NCBI GenBank assembly: GCA_945874695.1
Contig: CAMCHP010000032.1
Span: forward strand, 1-34,467
Source: Chryseobacterium gleum
GTDB taxonomy: Bacteria > Bacteroidota > Bacteroidia > Flavobacteriales_D > Sanyastnellaceae
Direction of reading: 5' to 3'
DNA: 34,467 nucleotides
The translations under genes were made by a program, and so were the position numbers. Shown piece after piece: positions 25,716 to 32,689 of this stretch. The notes under the pieces were generated by a model. It searched no databases. It was not told where the DNA came from and saw only the letters and a program-made list of their open reading frames with translations. The stretch's first letter is position 1. Every line of letters begins with the position of its first letter.

Positions 25716-25789
25716 GGTCTGGTAGTTCAGTTGGTTAGAATACATGCCTGTCACGCATGGGGTCGCGAGTTCAAGTCTCGTCCAGACCG
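25716..25789 (+). tRNA. tRNA-Asp (anticodon GTC)
   Basis: The cloverleaf is complete: acceptor GGTCTGG/CCAGACC, D stem GTTC/GAAT, anticodon stem CATGC/GCATG around loop CTGTCAC (anticodon GTC), variable loop GGGTC, T stem GCGAG/CTCGT with loop TTCAAGT, and discriminator G. CCA is not encoded. It is followed by three partial, altered copies of its own sequence. Confidence 0.97.
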
Positions 25790-25804
25790 CAACTGAATGT
25801 AATT

Positions 25805-25837
25805 AAAAGGTCACCCTCAAAGGTGACCTTTTATTTT
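25805..25837 (+). terminator. Terminator of tRNA-Asp
   Basis: An 11-bp stem AAAAGGTCACC/GGTGACCTTTT with a 6-nt loop runs into a T-rich tract, 15 bp after the tRNA end. The same hairpin recurs after each pseudo-tRNA unit. Confidence 0.85.
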
Positions 25838-25858
25838 AGCACAAATTTTCCTTTAAAG

Positions 25859-25927
25859 CGTTCTGTTGGTTCGAATATCCCGACACGTCGGGAGGGTCGC
25901 GAGTTCAAGCCTAGCTGTCCAGACCGC
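25859..25927 (+). pseudogene. tRNA-Asp-derived pseudo unit 1
   Basis: This 69-nt segment aligns to tRNA-Asp from the D arm to the 3' end (GTTC-GTTGGTT-GAAT, GGTCGCGAGTTCAAG, GTCCAGACCGCAACTG). It lacks the 5' acceptor strand. The anticodon arm is replaced by a 16-nt palindrome, TCCCGACACGTCGGGA (25878-25893), and the T stem is broken by CTAGCTGT. It cannot form a cloverleaf. Confidence 0.8.
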
Positions 25928-25941
25928 AACTGAATGTTATT

Positions 25942-25974
25942 AAAAGGTCACCCTCACCGGTGACCTTTTATTTT
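25942..25974 (+). terminator. Terminator after pseudo unit 1
   Basis: Same 11-bp stem as after the tRNA, with the loop changed to CTCACC, followed by a T-rich tract. Confidence 0.75.
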
Positions 25975-25995
25975 ACCACGAAATTCCCTTCAAAG

Positions 25996-26064
25996 CGTTC
26001 AGTTGGTTCGAATATCCCGACACGTCGGGAGGGTCGCGAGTTCAAGTCTAGCTGTCCAGACCGC
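25996..26064 (+). pseudogene. tRNA-Asp-derived pseudo unit 2
   Basis: Second copy, exactly 137 bp after unit 1. It differs from unit 1 at only two positions in 69 and keeps the tRNA-like GTTCAGTTGG of the true gene. The same palindrome replaces the anticodon arm. Confidence 0.8.
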
Positions 26065-26078
26065 AACTGAATGTAATT

Positions 26079-26111
26079 AAAAGGTCACCCTCAAAGGTGA
26101 CCTTTTATTTT
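26079..26111 (+). terminator. Terminator after pseudo unit 2
   Basis: Stem and CTCAAA loop are identical to the tRNA-Asp terminator. Confidence 0.75.
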
Positions 26112-26132
26112 AGCACAAATTCCCCTTTAAAG

Positions 26133-26201
26133 CGTTCTGTTGGTTCGAATATCCCGACACGTCGGGAGGGTCGCGCGTTCAAGTCTAGCTGTCCAGACCG
26201 C
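26133..26201 (+). pseudogene. tRNA-Asp-derived pseudo unit 3
   Basis: Third copy, again at 137-bp spacing, with one additional change in the T stem (GCGCG for GCGAG). The 3' GTCCAGACCGCAACTG is intact. Confidence 0.8.
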
Positions 26202-26215
26202 AACTGAATGTAATT

Positions 26216-26240
26216 AAAAGGTCACCGGTGACCTTTTATT
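26216..26240 (+). terminator. Terminator after pseudo unit 3, loop deleted
   Basis: The six loop bases are missing, leaving a perfect 22-bp palindrome (11-bp arms with no loop) before a T-rich tract. This looks like a precise deletion of the loop. Confidence 0.65.
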
Positions 26241-26266: not shown

Positions 26267-26534
26267 AATCCGAGGTTGGTTTGACCTCGGATTAAAGGGA
26301 TTTACACGGATATTATGCTTCTCGGTTTAAAGAATCTGTGCGAATCTGTTCAATCCGTGGTTGAATTAACCTGGGATTAGAGGGATTTACACGGATGTTA
26401 TGCTTCTCGGTTTAAAGAATCTATGCGAATCTGTTCAATCCGTGGTTGATCTGACCGCGGATTAAAGGGATTTACACGGATGCTATGTTTTCGGTTTAAA
26501 GAATCTGTGCGAATCTGTTCAATCCGTGGTTAAC
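26267..26534. repeat. Tandem 85-bp repeats, three units
   Basis: Units start at 26267, 26352 and 26437 (85, 85 and 84 bp), with a terminal fragment at 26521-26534. Each contains GGGATTTACACGGAT, CGGTTTAAAGAATCT and GCGAATCTGTTCAATCCG. Unit junctions form hairpins: at 26267-26293 a perfect 10-bp stem AATCCGAGGT/ACCTCGGATT, and at the next junctions the arms change together. The two ends of a unit are also imperfect inverted copies of one another. Similar 'ACGGATT...AATCTGTG' repeats are common in bacterial genomes of this type, as far as I recall. The rest of the gap, 26535-26702, is A/T-rich and shows nothing I recognise. Confidence 0.8.
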
Positions 26535-26755: not shown

Positions 26756-28618
26756 ATGACTGGTTTGAATCTACTTCGCCTCTCACTCGTGCTATTGTTC
26801 TTTCCTGTGACATTTTCTCAAGCCCAATCGGTTGAAGAAATAAAAAGCAAACGCGACATTTACCTTTGGGGTGAGGGAACGGGCAATACACTCAAACGTG
26901 CCGATGATGAAGCGTTGGCCGACTTGATCAGCCAAATCTCTGTTAGTGTTTCGAGTAGCTTTGAAAACGAGGTTATCGAAACAAAGGTGCGTTCTGGCAA
27001 CACGACCCAGTCAGCCTTTGAAGAGAATGTGCGAGGGATCATCAGCACCTATTCCCAATCTGCACTCACGAACACTGAACGCATTGTTATAAGTAACGAG
27101 CCCGATGCCAAAGTGCTGCGCTTCATTAAACGTGAAGATGTAAGCAAGGTGTTCAATGAACGCAAAGCAAAGGTTTACGACTACGTCGCCGTAGCCGAAG
27201 AACACGAAGAAAAGTCGCGGTTGAGCGATGCTTTGCGCTACTACAATTGGGCGTTGGCTCTCCTAAGAAGTCATCCCGAGTCAAAAAGTATTTTGTCCGA
27301 ACGTCCAGCAGGAAGCGCCTACATGCAGGCCTACATCACCGAGCGGATCAGTGGAATCCTCGACGATATCCAATTCACGTTCAGCGCATTAAATGATGAA
27401 GACAACCACCGTGAAATTGTGCTCAATTGCTCCTTCCGCGGTAACCCCGTACTCAATCTCGATTACTCGTTTTGGTTTGGTACAGATTGGTCGCGCCTGC
27501 ACAGTGTGAAAGACGGACGAACACTTGTCGATTTCTACGGCGATAACGCCCAATCGTGGGAAAAAACCAATTTCAAAATCGAATACGCATACACCGAACA
27601 GCTCTTCGGTGATAAAGAACTCGAAGAAATCTATCGGTTGATGGATCCGCCTTACTTTACCAAAGCAGCGAGAGAGGTGAAGTTTACCGATGCATCCAAA
27701 CCTACGGTTAAAGCAGAAGCGCCAAGCATTCCAAATGTAGCGCAAGCAACGAACACCGGGCCCATCGCGCATGAGTTGGTGAAAGTTGACGCTGCACCGT
27801 TTAAAGCTGCAGTTGATGCGATTGCAACGGCGACGCGAACCCGCAACGCGGAGAGTGTGCGCGGTATGTTTACCCCAGAAGGATTCGAGGTCTACGAAAA
27901 ACTACTGCTTTACGGAAAGGCACGTCCCGTCGATGATCGAAACTTTGAAGTGTACCGCAACAACGATCGCTTCATCGCCCGCGGAAAATACATGACCTTC
28001 GACTTCCAAGGTGGAAACAAGTCATTCGTCGAAGAGGTGGTGTTTCATTTCAATGCCGATCAAAAAGTAACTACGGTCGCCTTCGGCTTAGGTGAGATCG
28101 CGACAGCCGATATTTACAATCACCCGGCATGGTCTGAAGAAGAAAAGTTCGTCCTCGTCGATTTTCTCGAGCAGTATAAAACAGCTTTTGCCCTGAAAAG
28201 ACTCGATTACCTCGAAGCGGTGTTTGATGACAATGCGGTCATCATTACAGGAACGGTCTTGAAGAAAAAACAAGAAATTGACGGACGTCCAGCTGAAAAC
28301 CTATTCGCCGACAATCAAATCGTTCAGTACAACCGCTTCACCAAACGGGAGTACATGCAACGCCTCGACCACGTGTTCCGAAGCAAAGACTTTGTCAACA
28401 TCGAATTTGAAGACAATACCCTGCGCAAAAGCAACGCCAATCCGAACTTGTTCGGTATCCAAATCAAACAAAATTACCGGTCTAACAACTACGGCGATCA
28501 GGGGTATTTGTTCTTGTTAATCGATTTCAGTGTGCGCAATGAGCCATCGATACACGTGCGAACTTGGCAACCTGAAAAAGATCCAGACGGAAGAATTTAT
28601 GGACTTGAAGATTTTTAG
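26756..28618 (+). CDS. Secreted LPP20-like protein with NTF2-like C-terminal regions
   Basis: The 620-residue protein starts with a signal peptide (hydrophobic to about 20, AQ near 24). Residues about 30-130 resemble the LPP20 domain: YLWGEGTGNTLKRADDEALADLISQISVSV, in which a short glycine turn precedes a helix of acidic and alanine residues. Two later regions (about 345-440 and 455-600) have the helix-then-curved-sheet pattern of NTF2/SnoaL-like folds, for example FLEQYKTAFALKRLDYLEAVFDDNAVII. No catalytic residues can be assigned. It overlaps the next gene by 20 bases. Co-location with PEGA and FGE-like genes resembles clusters I recall from other Bacteroidota; a cell-envelope role is inferred. 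Confidence 0.7.
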   Translation: MTGLNLLRLSLVLLFFPVTFSQAQSVEEIKSKRDIYLWGEGTGNTLKRADDEALADLISQISVSVSSSFENEVIETKVRSGNTTQSAFEENVRGIISTYSQSALTNTERIVISNEPDAKVLRFIKREDVSKVFNERKAKVYDYVAVAEEHEEKSRLSDALRYYNWALALLRSHPESKSILSERPAGSAYMQAYITERISGILDDIQFTFSALNDEDNHREIVLNCSFRGNPVLNLDYSFWFGTDWSRLHSVKDGRTLVDFYGDNAQSWEKTNFKIEYAYTEQLFGDKELEEIYRLMDPPYFTKAAREVKFTDASKPTVKAEAPSIPNVAQATNTGPIAHELVKVDAAPFKAAVDAIATATRTRNAESVRGMFTPEGFEVYEKLLLYGKARPVDDRNFEVYRNNDRFIARGKYMTFDFQGGNKSFVEEVVFHFNADQKVTTVAFGLGEIATADIYNHPAWSEEEKFVLVDFLEQYKTAFALKRLDYLEAVFDDNAVIITGTVLKKKQEIDGRPAENLFADNQIVQYNRFTKREYMQRLDHVFRSKDFVNIEFEDNTLRKSNANPNLFGIQIKQNYRSNNYGDQGYLFLLIDFSVRNEPSIHVRTWQPEKDPDGRIYGLEDF

Positions 28619-30818
28619 CATTGTAGCCATCTTTTTTACTTGCTCGGGTTTGTTTTCGGCCTCATCGGCCGGATGTCAGGATCTCGATGTAAGTGGTTTT
28701 GTGGCCTTGCCCAACGACATGACTGCACGGACTTTGGCTCCGGTGCGCGATGCCAATGGCGAATTAACAGCATTGATTAAAGTGGTAACTGTTCAGGATG
28801 GCTTCATCTTTGAAGGCGGATCACTCGGTATTGTCAAGGCTGAACAAAAAGAAGGCGAGTGGTGGGTTTACATCCCCGCAGGGGCGCGCACCATTACCAT
28901 TCGGCACCCGCGATTGGGCGTGTTGCGAAACTATGCATACCCCGTTGCCATTACCTCAGGTGCCGTATACGAAATGAAGCTCGTACACGGCGTGGTTGAA
29001 ACCGTCATTCGCGAGCGTCAAATCTTGAGTGAATTCGTGGTCATCGAGTCTGACCCTCCCGGTGCAGATGTTTACCTGAACAATGAGCCCGTCGGCAAAA
29101 CTCCTTTCGCCTCTGACAAGCCTGAAGGCCGCTATGAGTGGCGTGTCGAATCGAATTTGTACCTGCCCGAAGCGGGCATCTTCGAGTTAAAAGCGGGCGA
29201 AAAGGTTCGCTTAGATGTTGTACTCAAGCCCAATTTCGGGGCGCTGTTCATCACCTCAACACCCGAAGGTGCAGCTGAGATTTTGATTAACGGCATGCGG
29301 ATGAACAAAACAACCCCCGCTACCATTCCTGACTTGCCAACGGGTGAACACACACTCACCTTGTCGCATCCTTGGTACGAAACTAAAACACAAAAAGTCA
29401 CGGTTTTGGCGGGTGAAACGCAAAATGTTGAGGTTGCGATGAAGCCCAATTTTGCTGATTTGACAATCACGGCTGAGTCCAATGAAGAGGTGTTCCTAAA
29501 CGGGGCACGCAAGGGCTTGGGGACATGGAATGGCCGACTATCACCCGGGGTATATCAGATTGAGGTGCGCAAAGCGTCGCATAAAACGGCGACACGTCAA
29601 CTTTCATTGAAGTCAGGCGATAAAGAATCGATTAAACTCGAACCAACGCCTATCCTGAGTGTGCTGAAAATACAGTCAACACCGCTCGATGCAGAGATTT
29701 ACTTGAACGGTAAAAACTACGGCAACACACCCCAAATTGTGCGCGATTTGTTGATCGGTACCTACGAACTCGAACTCCGTAAAGCGGGTTTTGGCGCCAT
29801 GAAGCGCCAGGTTGAAGTGCGCGAAGGTGAAACCGTTGAATTGAACGAAACGCTGAGCTCAAACGGCAGCTTGAGTTTCACCAGCAATGTGCCCGGTACT
29901 GAGGTCTACGTTGACGGGGCGTACAAAGGAACAACGCCATTGACTATATCTGATCTCACGCCTGCGAGCTACAATTATGAGCTCAAGAAAGCAGGCTACG
30001 AGGCGGCCAAGGGTTGGACCTATGTTGAGGCGGGCAATACGGCCGAGGTGAACGCAAACTTACTCGTGCTCGGAGGTACGGTTTCATTGTATTCTGAACC
30101 TTCAGGCGCAGAGGTCTTCATTGAAGGCACCTACCGCGGCGTGACGCCTTTGATGATCAACGGATTGTCGCCAAACGCCTACATCGTCGAGTTCCGTAAA
30201 AGTGGATACACTTCGCAAAAGAAACGGGTGTACGTAAAGAGTGGCGAAAAGACCCAAGAAACAGCGGTGATGAAGCAAACGCGTCAGGCACGCACTGCTG
30301 CGCGCAGCGATGCCGGTTTTATGCTCTACACCTATGAAGATGACCGTCCGATCGGCTTGTCTTTTGGTGCGCTAAATAACCAAGCTTTAGGAATGTATGC
30401 CAACTTTGCCTTGAGTCCATCGGTGCTCACCACAACCCTTTACGAAATCGATGATAACGGATCAACCGATTCGCCCTGGGCCTTGGTGCGCACCGGCGAG
30501 GTTCGCGAAGGCAATTTCAGCACATCACTCGGATTAACCATCCCAGTTATTTATCCACTCTGGGCCTATGTGGGTGCTGGCTTTGGCATCAAACGATACC
30601 TTGTAGAAGTGGAGGAGTATGGGTGGTCAACAGGTGATTTCTATGGAAAGGAGTGGTACGAAAATCCAACCCGTTCAGGCACTGAACTTTTCCCAGAGGT
30701 GGGATTAATGTTGAAATTGGGCAATGCGCTGGTATTGAAGTACGGCATAACACCTGAAAATGGCAATATCCCAATGGATGGCCGCAGACACCAATTCGGC
30801 TTTGGTTTCCAATTCTAA
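28599..30818 (+). CDS. PEGA-repeat protein with C-terminal beta-barrel-like domain
   Basis: The 739-residue protein starts at ATG 28599, which opens a signal peptide; an upstream in-frame extension would lie inside the previous gene. The signal ends SAGC (Cys26), either a lipobox or a type I site. Residues 30-140 are an N-terminal domain shared with the proteins at 31748 and 33103 (LPNDMTARTLA, then WVYIPAGARTITIRHP and NYAYPV). Six PEGA-type repeats follow at about 145-210, 214-282, 285-347, 354-420, 424-489 and 493-557, most with a G-x-VYLNG-xxxGxTP core. From about 573 to the terminal F739 the chain looks like short membrane strands of a small outer-membrane barrel. PEGA domains are carbohydrate- or surface-binding-like beta sandwiches; joining six of them to a barrel suggests a display stalk on the outer membrane, which is inference. 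Confidence 0.85.
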   Translation: MDLKIFSIVAIFFTCSGLFSASSAGCQDLDVSGFVALPNDMTARTLAPVRDANGELTALIKVVTVQDGFIFEGGSLGIVKAEQKEGEWWVYIPAGARTITIRHPRLGVLRNYAYPVAITSGAVYEMKLVHGVVETVIRERQILSEFVVIESDPPGADVYLNNEPVGKTPFASDKPEGRYEWRVESNLYLPEAGIFELKAGEKVRLDVVLKPNFGALFITSTPEGAAEILINGMRMNKTTPATIPDLPTGEHTLTLSHPWYETKTQKVTVLAGETQNVEVAMKPNFADLTITAESNEEVFLNGARKGLGTWNGRLSPGVYQIEVRKASHKTATRQLSLKSGDKESIKLEPTPILSVLKIQSTPLDAEIYLNGKNYGNTPQIVRDLLIGTYELELRKAGFGAMKRQVEVREGETVELNETLSSNGSLSFTSNVPGTEVYVDGAYKGTTPLTISDLTPASYNYELKKAGYEAAKGWTYVEAGNTAEVNANLLVLGGTVSLYSEPSGAEVFIEGTYRGVTPLMINGLSPNAYIVEFRKSGYTSQKKRVYVKSGEKTQETAVMKQTRQARTAARSDAGFMLYTYEDDRPIGLSFGALNNQALGMYANFALSPSVLTTTLYEIDDNGSTDSPWALVRTGEVREGNFSTSLGLTIPVIYPLWAYVGAGFGIKRYLVEVEEYGWSTGDFYGKEWYENPTRSGTELFPEVGLMLKLGNALVLKYGITPENGNIPMDGRRHQFGFGFQF
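28655..28675 (-). repeat. REP-like hairpin inside the PEGA gene signal-peptide region
   Basis: This 21-bp segment matches the intergenic hairpin repeat (inverted orientation) at 18 of 21 positions. The CGGCC/GGCCG stem is intact and only the loop differs (TCATC). It encodes Ser-Ala-Ser-Ser-Ala-Gly-Cys, the end of the signal peptide, and is preceded by a T tract like the other copies. Confidence 0.5.
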
Positions 30819-30831
30819 TTCAAGCCTGCAC

Positions 30832-31680
30832 ATGGCATGCAAGCGGTTGCAAGCGTCCACATCGCTCATTCCGCAAGGCTTTCAGCGTATACTATTACAC
30901 ACCACCTTGCTGAGCAGTATTTTTTTATCAGCCTGGTCGGCTGGATGTCAGGAATTCCCCAGCAGTCCTTCTGAATTAGAGGCCGTGCATCAAGCCATCG
31001 CTGAAAGTATGGTATTCGTAGAGACGGGCAGCTTTGAGATGGGAAGCGACCGGATGCGGGTGCGTTACGTCAGTGAATTGCCTGTTCACCCCGTGGCCGT
31101 AAGTAGTTTTCAAATCAGTAAGTACGAAATAACCCAAGCGCAATGGCGCGCCGTGATGGGCAATAATCCGAGCGATTTTGAGGACTGCGATGATTGTCCG
31201 GTTGAGCGCGTAAGCTGGAATGATGTCCAAGTGTTTATCACCAACTTAAATCAACAAACCGGTCGCAACTATCGGCTCCCGACCGAGGCTGAATGGGAGT
31301 TTGCCGCACGCGGCGGGCGCTTGAGCCAAGGTTATCGGTATGCAGGGAGCAATCGCTTGCGCAAAGTGGCATGGTTCGAAAGAAACAGCGGGGGACGAAC
31401 ACATCCGGTTGGGACGAAAGCCCCGAACGAGTTGGGTTTGTACGACATGTCAGGCAATGTGTGGGAGTGGTGTCAAGATGTTTTCGCTCGTTATACCGAT
31501 TTGCCGCAAACCGACCCAATCGTTGAAGGTGATGAAGGATCGCGCATTTTGCGCGGCGGTGGATGGCATGATCGGCGCGATTTTAATCGGGTCACCTACC
31601 GCAATGCACTCAAACCTAAGTATGCTGAACACCGCTACGGACTTCGATTGGTATTGCCAATATCGAGTGGTGGTTTGTGA
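30832..31680 (+). CDS. FGE-sulfatase (SUMF1) domain protein, probable lipoprotein, non-catalytic
   Basis: The 282-residue protein starts at ATG 30832, 13 bp after the PEGA gene. A signal sequence with basic n-region ends SAGC (Cys39), a plausible lipobox. The rest is one formylglycine-generating-enzyme fold: FVETGSFEMGSD, ISKYEITQAQWRAVMG, CDDCPVERVSW, RLPTEAEWEFAARGG, LGLYDMSGNVWEWCQD and ILRGGGW. True FGE needs a cysteine pair after the RGGSW motif; here that stretch (HDRRDFNRVTYRN) has none and the terminal GFRC is YGLRL. It is therefore unlikely to oxidise sulfatase cysteines and is better seen as a binding or structural relative. No sulfatase gene is in the window. Confidence 0.85.
   Translation: MACKRLQASTSLIPQGFQRILLHTTLLSSIFLSAWSAGCQEFPSSPSELEAVHQAIAESMVFVETGSFEMGSDRMRVRYVSELPVHPVAVSSFQISKYEITQAQWRAVMGNNPSDFEDCDDCPVERVSWNDVQVFITNLNQQTGRNYRLPTEAEWEFAARGGRLSQGYRYAGSNRLRKVAWFERNSGGRTHPVGTKAPNELGLYDMSGNVWEWCQDVFARYTDLPQTDPIVEGDEGSRILRGGGWHDRRDFNRVTYRNALKPKYAEHRYGLRLVLPISSGGL
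30927..30947 (-). repeat. Diverged REP-like hairpin in the FGE-like gene signal-peptide region
   Basis: This segment matches the intergenic repeat at 15 of 21 positions. Two of the differences are a paired change (G to A and C to T) that preserves the stem as CAGCC/GGCTG. It encodes Ala-Trp-Ser-Ala-Gly-Cys and follows six T residues, as in other copies. Confidence 0.4.
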
Positions 31681-31735
31681 TTTCAATCGACGCGTATTTT
31701 CTGGAATACTGAACACGAAAGGCAGATGATTTTGT

Positions 31736-31743
31736 TATTTTTG
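31736..31743 (+). promoter_or_regulatory. -7 promoter box before the second FGE-like gene
   Basis: TATTTTTG matches TAnnTTTG and ends only 4 nt before the ATG, which would give a leaderless or nearly leaderless message. No TTG is seen at the expected distance. Confidence 0.3.
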
Positions 31744-31747
31744 TTGC

Positions 31748-32689
31748 ATGCTTAAATTCCTAACAACATGCTTTTTGCTTTGCGCTGCAACCTTCGTGTT
31801 CAGTCAAGAGCAATTGAGTATAGCTGCCTTCACGCCGCTCCCGAACGACATGACCGCCCGCACGCTCGCTCTAGAGCGCGATGACCAAGGTAATCTTCGA
31901 GCATTGCGCATAGCAAGCCATACAGAAACAAATTCAGAAATTGAATTCGGCACGACGCTCGAAATTGTTCAAACGCCGATACAAAACCTTTCAACAAGTG
32001 ATGCCAGTGATTTCGACCTCGAAATGGTGTTCGTTGAAGGCGGAAGGTTCAAAATGGGCTGCAGACGTGAAGAAATGGGTGATTGCTTTGAAGAGCTCCT
32101 TCCAGCGCATTACGTGACGGTGAGCGACTTCTATATCGGTAAGTATGAGGTCACCCAAGCTCAGTGGCGGGCTGTAATGGGCAACAATCCAAGCCATTTC
32201 ATCGGATGTGACGATTGCCCGGTAGAAAAGGTAAGTTGGAACGAGGTGCAAGACTTCATTCAGAAACTGAACCAGCTTTCGGGCAAAAACTATCGTTTGC
32301 CGACCGAAGCGGAATGGGAATACGCAGCAAGAGGAGGTAACAAGAGCCAAGGATTCTTGCACGCAGGGGGCAACGATCTTGATAGCTTAGGCTGGTATGC
32401 AAGCAACAGCACAATGCGAACCAATGTCGTGGGACAATGGTACGGAAACCAGCTCGGTATCTATGATATGTCCGGCAATGTAAGTGAATGGTGCGAAGAT
32501 TGGTATGGAGAGTACCCTAATGAAGAGCAAATCAATCCCAAAGGCCCTTTGAACGGAGAAAGACGCGTTCTTCGCGGCGGCAGTTGGAACGACACATGGG
32601 GGAGATGCGTCGTTGCTGCTCGCGACAATGGAGGTTCTACAATTCGACTTATGTTTAATGGCTTTCGCTTGGTTCTGCCCGCAGAGTAG
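31748..32689 (+). CDS. Secreted protein with PEGA-associated N-terminal domain joined to an FGE-like domain
   Basis: The 313-residue protein has a signal peptide (to about FVFSQ, residue 20). Residues about 25-75 are the front part of the domain that opens the PEGA proteins (FTPLPNDMTARTLALERD). This is followed directly by an FGE/SUMF1 fold from about 92 (MVFVEGGRFKMG) to LRGGSW and GFRLV. The FGE part is close to that of the upstream neighbour (both have QAQWRAVMGNNPS and CDDCPVE). The catalytic region (NDTWGRCVVAARDN) keeps a single cysteine and the terminal GFRC cysteine is absent, so oxidase activity is unlikely. The protein looks like a domain exchange between the two gene types of this cluster. 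Confidence 0.85.
   Translation: MLKFLTTCFLLCAATFVFSQEQLSIAAFTPLPNDMTARTLALERDDQGNLRALRIASHTETNSEIEFGTTLEIVQTPIQNLSTSDASDFDLEMVFVEGGRFKMGCRREEMGDCFEELLPAHYVTVSDFYIGKYEVTQAQWRAVMGNNPSHFIGCDDCPVEKVSWNEVQDFIQKLNQLSGKNYRLPTEAEWEYAARGGNKSQGFLHAGGNDLDSLGWYASNSTMRTNVVGQWYGNQLGIYDMSGNVSEWCEDWYGEYPNEEQINPKGPLNGERRVLRGGSWNDTWGRCVVAARDNGGSTIRLMFNGFRLVLPAE

Follow-up and report, generated by a model that had tools for sequence, protein, structure and literature searches.

Three tRNA-derived units stand in tandem behind a tRNA-Asp gene of the window, by which we mean the whole 34,467-nucleotide stretch of DNA that was analysed. This array is probably what is left of a GIY-YIG endonuclease element associated with tRNA genes, namely its tail, multiplied in tandem and without the gene. 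The anatomy of such elements, the two-way association between the gene and the tRNA copies, presence or absence and copy-number variation at one site, and a tandem intermediate with a deleted gene were all observed at the loci described below.

Structure of the array behind tRNA-Asp

The single tRNA gene in the window was identified as tRNA-Asp(GTC) by ARAGORN and Rfam. A previous sequence-only reading had described this intact gene and its terminator as being followed by three units at an exact 137-bp spacing, which was confirmed by ARAGORN, Rfam and TRF (Table 1). TRF returned a period of 137 with 3.4 copies and 93% matches (25760-26226), and GTCCAGACCGCAACTG was found to occur four times at exactly this spacing (25780, 25917, 26054 and 26191), against a chance expectation of 0.23 even with 3 mismatches. 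The same reading had each unit consist of a D-arm-like part, the tRNA 3′ end and its own terminator, with no 5′ acceptor strand, and had called the units near-identical; both descriptions held, apart from the third terminator having no loop. Within the tRNA-like part 2-3 of 64 positions differed between units, compared to 14-17 of 59 between a unit and tRNA-Asp. In the 3′ end and terminator only 2-7 of 67-73 positions differed from the copy belonging to tRNA-Asp itself.

Table 1. Position of the tRNA-Asp gene, its derived tails and their terminators in the window
Feature	Position	Strand	Evidence
Intact tRNA-Asp(GTC), parent of the units	25716..25790	+	ARAGORN; Rfam RF00005 66.9 bits
tRNA-Asp intrinsic terminator (AAAAGGTCACCCTCAAAGGTGACCTTTT)	25805..25832	+	Sequence; fold -17.8 kcal/mol, z -4.5
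Tail 1: D-arm-like part, hairpin for anticodon arm, broken T arm, tRNA 3′ end; without 5′ acceptor strand	25860..25926	+	
Tail 1 hairpin TCCCGACACGTCGGGA	25878..25893	+	
Tail 1 terminator copy; both stem-side changes relative to the tRNA's copy fall in the loop	25942..25969	+	
Tail 2	25997..26063	+	Sequence, alignment
Tail 2 hairpin	26015..26030	+	
Tail 2 terminator copy	26079..26106	+	
Tail 3	26134..26200	+	Sequence, alignment
Tail 3 hairpin	26152..26167	+	
Tail 3 terminator copy, loop deleted, stem kept (AAAAGGTCACCGGTGACCTTTT)	26216..26237	+	

Alignment to tRNA-Asp revealed that the anticodon arm of each unit has been swapped for the hairpin TCCCGACACGTCGGGA and that the T arm is damaged (CTAGCT), after which GTCCAGACCG, the trailer and the terminator are retained. 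Neither the hairpin nor the broken T arm had featured in the sequence-only reading, and the same is true of a second, unrelated tandem array of 3.1 copies of 85 bp (26267-26531, ~90% alike), which lies ~30 bp past the last tail and has related copies on at least eight other contigs of the same genome. Folding of the tRNA-like parts of the units was not improved over that of shuffled sequence (z 0.1 to 0.3). In an Rfam search of the window nothing but tRNA reached the gathering score, and there was no match to the rtT model. The unit was also considered as a dispersed repeat of its own genome and rejected as such, as it is confined to the tRNA-Asp locus. Further along the window (28530-32689), a PEGA-repeat protein is followed by two FGE-sulfatase-type (SUMF1-like) proteins, all encoded in one direction.

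An HMM search over all six frames found neither an endonuclease gene nor a GIY-YIG remnant in the window. The array was therefore classed as a gene-less derivative and not as an element, and the link between array and element rests on anatomy and on sister loci.

GIY-YIG elements and hairpin-bearing tRNA copies in Bacteroidota

At sister loci the complete element consists of an intact tRNA gene, a terminator, a GIY-YIG gene of about 80-135 codons, a tail and a further terminator. The tail is a displaced tRNA copy running from approximately position 8 to the 3′ end, in which a GC-rich hairpin, mostly TCCCGA..TCGGGA, takes the place of the anticodon arm or interrupts it, and often does the same to the T arm. 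There is often a mirror copy 55-110 bp upstream of the intact tRNA, comprising the tRNA 5′ half and a hairpin of this kind. L134 has the complete form at a tRNA-Asp gene: the tRNA and its terminator come first, then the GIY-YIG gene, and then an Asp tail that bears a hairpin and is followed by a second terminator. A functional tRNA together with the endonuclease gene and the displaced 3′ end is present at L134, at the tRNA-Val loci L292 and L232 and at others, and the window has the displaced ends only.

The genome that contains the window also encodes such elements. A search of its 3.09-Mb assembly with TCCCGAN{1,10}TCGGGA gave nine sites (one match for the reversed control pattern), eight of which are within tRNA-derived copies: three in the window, two in a tRNA-Asn-like array on contig C12 and three at a tRNA-Val locus on contig C108. 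The ninth, on contig C48, is near an apparent coding start. The order at C108 is a hairpin-bearing tRNA-Val 5′ half, the intact tRNA-Val, a terminator, a first GIY-YIG gene (88 codons), a hairpin-bearing tail, a terminator, a second GIY-YIG gene (133 codons, the frame running into the tail) and another tail, again with a hairpin. Compared with each other, the two genes show purifying selection (dN 0.11, dS 0.50). The array on C12 (L204, 45400-47400) has a 122-bp repeat whose first copy is the 3′ half of the tRNA from the anticodon on; there is no intact tRNA-Asn within this 2-kb stretch, and misassembly is possible.

The tRNA-Asp locus itself was compared between relatives. In G005, a related genome, the orthologous tRNA-Asp has the DUF58 gene and upstream sequence of the window in front of it and two gene-less 126-bp units behind it, which share the tRNA 3′ end and terminator with the units of the window and have a quite different middle part, with the hairpin TTCCCGAAGTTTCGGGA at the T arm. 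G015 and G030 have extra Asp copies upstream of tRNA-Asp instead, with the 5′ half kept, and most other relatives examined have no repeat at this gene. Arrays therefore come and go at one site.

A series of states was found at the tRNA-Val locus of genus g47. This locus is empty in G113 and carries two complete units in G148, a presence/absence polymorphism at one site among relatives; in G148 the flanks resume past the last tail terminator, and the terminators of the intact tRNA and of the tails are nearly identical. In G554 there are two 176-bp tails carrying a GIY-YIG gene with an internal deletion, and one more truncated GIY-YIG gene, and G523 has four gene-less 150-bp tails. The sequence-only reading had proposed a comparison of copy numbers, and the variation it looked for is thus present between species at the equivalent tRNA-Val locus of one genus. 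The gene-less tandem tails of G523 are the state that the window appears to show at tRNA-Asp.

A pattern composed of the D arm and the hairpin was scanned over 84,980 genomes and gave at least 118 stretches. The matches listed are nearly all from Bacteroidota, of several orders, and lie beside tRNA-Val, Asp, Met, Asn, Lys, Pro and others; a few are real tRNAs, or chance matches in the coding DNA of actinobacteria. The innermost pair of the stem, which the pattern left free, is paired in 105 of the 108 copies listed compared to at most 83 in shuffles, a difference inflated by relatedness and by selection through the pattern. The T loop is broken in 65/74 upstream and 16/30 downstream copies among the matches listed, which would fit protection from re-cutting but also fits plain loss of tRNA function. 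In the 0.52 Mb around the pattern loci, 26 more TCCCGA..TCGGGA hairpins were found outside the pattern (reversed control, 1); by reading, nearly all of these occupy the anticodon, T or D loop of a tRNA-derived copy. Although several loci come from metagenome-assembled genomes, arrays are present in isolates too (Pedobacter jejuensis, Marinirhabdus gelatinilytica and Algoriphagus formosus). A genus-level search of g39 matched 1/81 genomes; the element is therefore sporadic, and g39 was of no use for orthologue comparison.

As the pattern itself required the hairpin, three hairpin-independent searches were run. In the first, 20 genomes were searched with the D arm only; the partial copies found had TCCCG..CGGGA or TTCCGA..TCGGAA arms, except at one locus, the tRNA-Asp of G101. 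At this locus (L214, contig C33) tRNA-Asp lies between a 170-bp array and a 163-bp array, both with tRNA pieces and no TCCCG hairpin. The second, a hairpin-blind survey of tRNA-Val in Bacteroidota, covered 68 loci, of which 11 had partial copies (reversed-query control, 0), nearly all with a [TC][TC]CCG..CGG[AG][AG] hairpin. The hairpin being an artefact of the search pattern was rejected, since it was seen by the D-arm-only, tRNA-Val and endonuclease-first searches as well. Some GIY-YIG frames run into the tail (e.g. ...GSEHPDFSREGH) and others end at the D-arm TAG; coding for protein was rejected as the general cause of the hairpin being kept, as upstream copies and gene-less tails have no frame.

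Many copies are positioned 350-450 bp behind an intact tRNA, and the gap contains a small GIY-YIG frame, for which the TAG within the tRNA-like TAGCTCAG can serve as stop codon. Such a frame was found at ≤900 bp on the same strand at 56/118 of the loci listed, using an HMM built from frames of this kind. The density of GIY-YIG frames is 0.371/kb within 900 bp of the copies and 0.002/kb beyond 1.5 kb, a ~190-fold difference. At the 68 tRNA-Val loci, copy and GIY-YIG gene occurred together at 7, a copy only at 4, a GIY-YIG gene only at 2 and neither at 55 (Fisher p 1.1e-5). No nearby GIY-YIG gene was found for 16/30 tRNA-downstream copies among the pattern matches listed. In the other direction, homologues of the C108 GIY-YIG gene were found in 45/99 Bacteroidota genomes. 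For 30 loci, the best per genome, 25 of the genes are directly behind or overlap an intact tRNA (Val, Asn, Asp, Met, Pro, Ala, Arg, Gly or Ser), 4 have a tRNA-like tail only and 1 has neither; as the query was a tRNA-associated gene, this result describes its own family and not all GIY-YIG genes.

The frames match Pfam PF01541, the GIY-YIG catalytic domain, at E 1e-13 to 5e-19, and the catalytic motifs YIL, YIG, R...H and RE are kept in 33 distinct ORFs. The closest solved structure by sequence is that of the UPF0213 protein BH0048 (1zg2, E 0.0014). Phage and plasmid collections gave no match to the elements at E≤1e-5, and the D-arm and hairpin pattern found only a real tRNA-Met, and no pseudo-copy, in 2.9 million viral contigs. 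Carriage by a virus or plasmid was rejected on these grounds. At L332 (G090 contig C34), approximately nine GIY-YIG genes and their tRNA tails form a tandem series with a period of ~365 bp, and the hairpins are of another type (TCCGCC..GGCGGA). L136, from a genome labelled Zixibacteria, has an upstream 5′-half copy, a tRNA-Val and a GIY-YIG gene, and is a possible case outside the Bacteroidota or a binning error.

Alternative explanations and a proposed mechanism

An array of this form could be produced with no nuclease, by slippage or unequal crossing-over that duplicated the tRNA 3′ end and terminator in tandem, with decay afterwards. The exact 137-bp register, the near-identity of the terminator part to its parent and the lack of an ORF in the unit agree with this, and tandem duplication, one of the origins offered by the sequence-only reading, stands as to the form of the array. 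As a full account it is nonetheless unlikely, as it does not account for the recurrence of one kind of hairpin, in place of the anticodon arm, at different tRNAs and across several orders, and is weakened by the enrichment of GIY-YIG genes at such copies; the agent indicated is an endonuclease gene with a tRNA-derived tail. The same agent bears on the suggestion that the units are serial attachment scars, left by tyrosine-recombinase elements at the tRNA 3′ end. The repeated intact 3′ end is generally known as the usual attachment region of such elements, and the idea of an element using the tRNA survives in spirit. The tyrosine recombinase does not, because it is GIY-YIG genes that lie between tRNA and tail at sister loci, with two in the genome of the window. 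The identity also runs on through the terminator, the units are 126-176 bp with no cargo and the viral contigs held no pseudo-copy. A search for an integrase using this tRNA end had been suggested, and none was present among the nine window genes searched with Pfam or apparent on reading the other ORFs. Taken together, these findings make attachment scars very improbable.

Each unit ends in its own terminator and the inner pairs of the hairpin are kept, to an extent inflated by relatedness and pattern selection (see above), as might be expected if the units were small terminator-bounded RNAs acting as decoys or sponges, in the manner of the rtT RNA of the Escherichia coli tyrT operon. This proposal of the sequence-only reading found no support: a strong terminator stands ahead of each unit, the tRNA-like parts showed no folding signal, Rfam recognised only tRNA and the arrays are sporadic between related species. 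We give it scarcely any weight, slightly less than the attachment scars.

The reading of the array as the multiplied tail of a GIY-YIG element suggests the following mechanism, in which, as in every functional statement made here, we infer from sequence. The GIY-YIG enzyme would home by cutting tRNA genes, and repair would copy the endonuclease gene and the tail in behind the functional tRNA. Because of its hairpins the tail would not act as a tRNA and would probably also escape renewed cutting. The array may then grow and shrink through repeated breaks and unequal recombination. In the lineage of the window the endonuclease gene would have been lost and a shortened unit amplified to three copies, the terminator part staying parent-like through duplication or gene conversion.

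Comparison with known systems

SegB of T-even phages is a small free-standing GIY-YIG homing endonuclease encoded beside phage tRNA genes; it is reported to cut within tRNA genes and, through recombination, to drive the tandem amplification of the tRNA together with segB, truncated segB copies included (PMC13096335). In our analysis its reported motif, RAWTSGAAC, resembles the reverse complement of a tRNA T loop. The Bacteroidota elements likewise have a small free-standing GIY-YIG enzyme adjoining tRNA genes. In contrast to SegB, they are in cellular genomes and at many different tRNAs; SegB is phage-borne, and no displaced hairpin-bearing tRNA copy is described for it in PMC13096335. In fungal mitochondrial mORFs (the atp6 hybrid, Allomyces macrogynus, Glomus) a LAGLIDADG or GIY-YIG gene lies behind a host gene whose end has been duplicated, the displaced end being downstream and mostly unexpressed (PMC3630166). 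This arrangement of endonuclease gene and displaced host-gene end is shared with the Bacteroidota elements. The hosts of mORFs are protein-coding genes, whereas those of the Bacteroidota elements are tRNA genes, with hairpins in the displaced end and tandem multiplication.

Bacterial group I introns with homing endonucleases are likewise selfish DNA using tRNA genes (reviewed in PMC3984707). No intron was seen in the Bacteroidota elements, where the tRNA would stay functional through the intact copy upstream rather than through splicing. The introns are sited in the anticodon loops of tRNAs. The rtT repeats of the E. coli tyrT operon are tandem repeats behind a tRNA, each with a tRNA 3′ end; they differ from the units of the window in length, sequence and hairpin, and to our knowledge no endonuclease is associated with them. 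REP palindromes with RAYT transposases are short, GC-rich and present in many copies, whereas the Bacteroidota hairpins are almost only inside tRNA-derived copies. The likeness of the hairpin sequences is explained neither by the homing mechanism nor by the SegB precedent or the fungal mORFs. A wider interpretation, which we regard as possible but doubtful, is of phylum-wide undescribed selfish elements in which a minimal GIY-YIG nuclease would cut tRNA genes and insert behind them with a displaced copy. The displaced copies would be systematically rewritten into hairpins of one sequence type, TCCCGA..TCGGGA, itself the recognition or immunity signal of the enzyme, and gene-less arrays such as that of the window would not be debris but would serve as landing pads or immunity arrays.

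No description of tRNA-associated GIY-YIG elements in Bacteroidota was found in the open-access papers searched, which is weak evidence of absence. The elements account for a class of tRNA-like repeats that cause breaks or confusion in the annotation and assembly of many Bacteroidota genomes, and tie such repeats to a small nuclease family whose genomic context was likewise not found described there. They also offer a testable cellular counterpart of phage SegB, in which tRNA cutting leads to tandem amplification, and of the mobile ORFs of fungal mitochondria.
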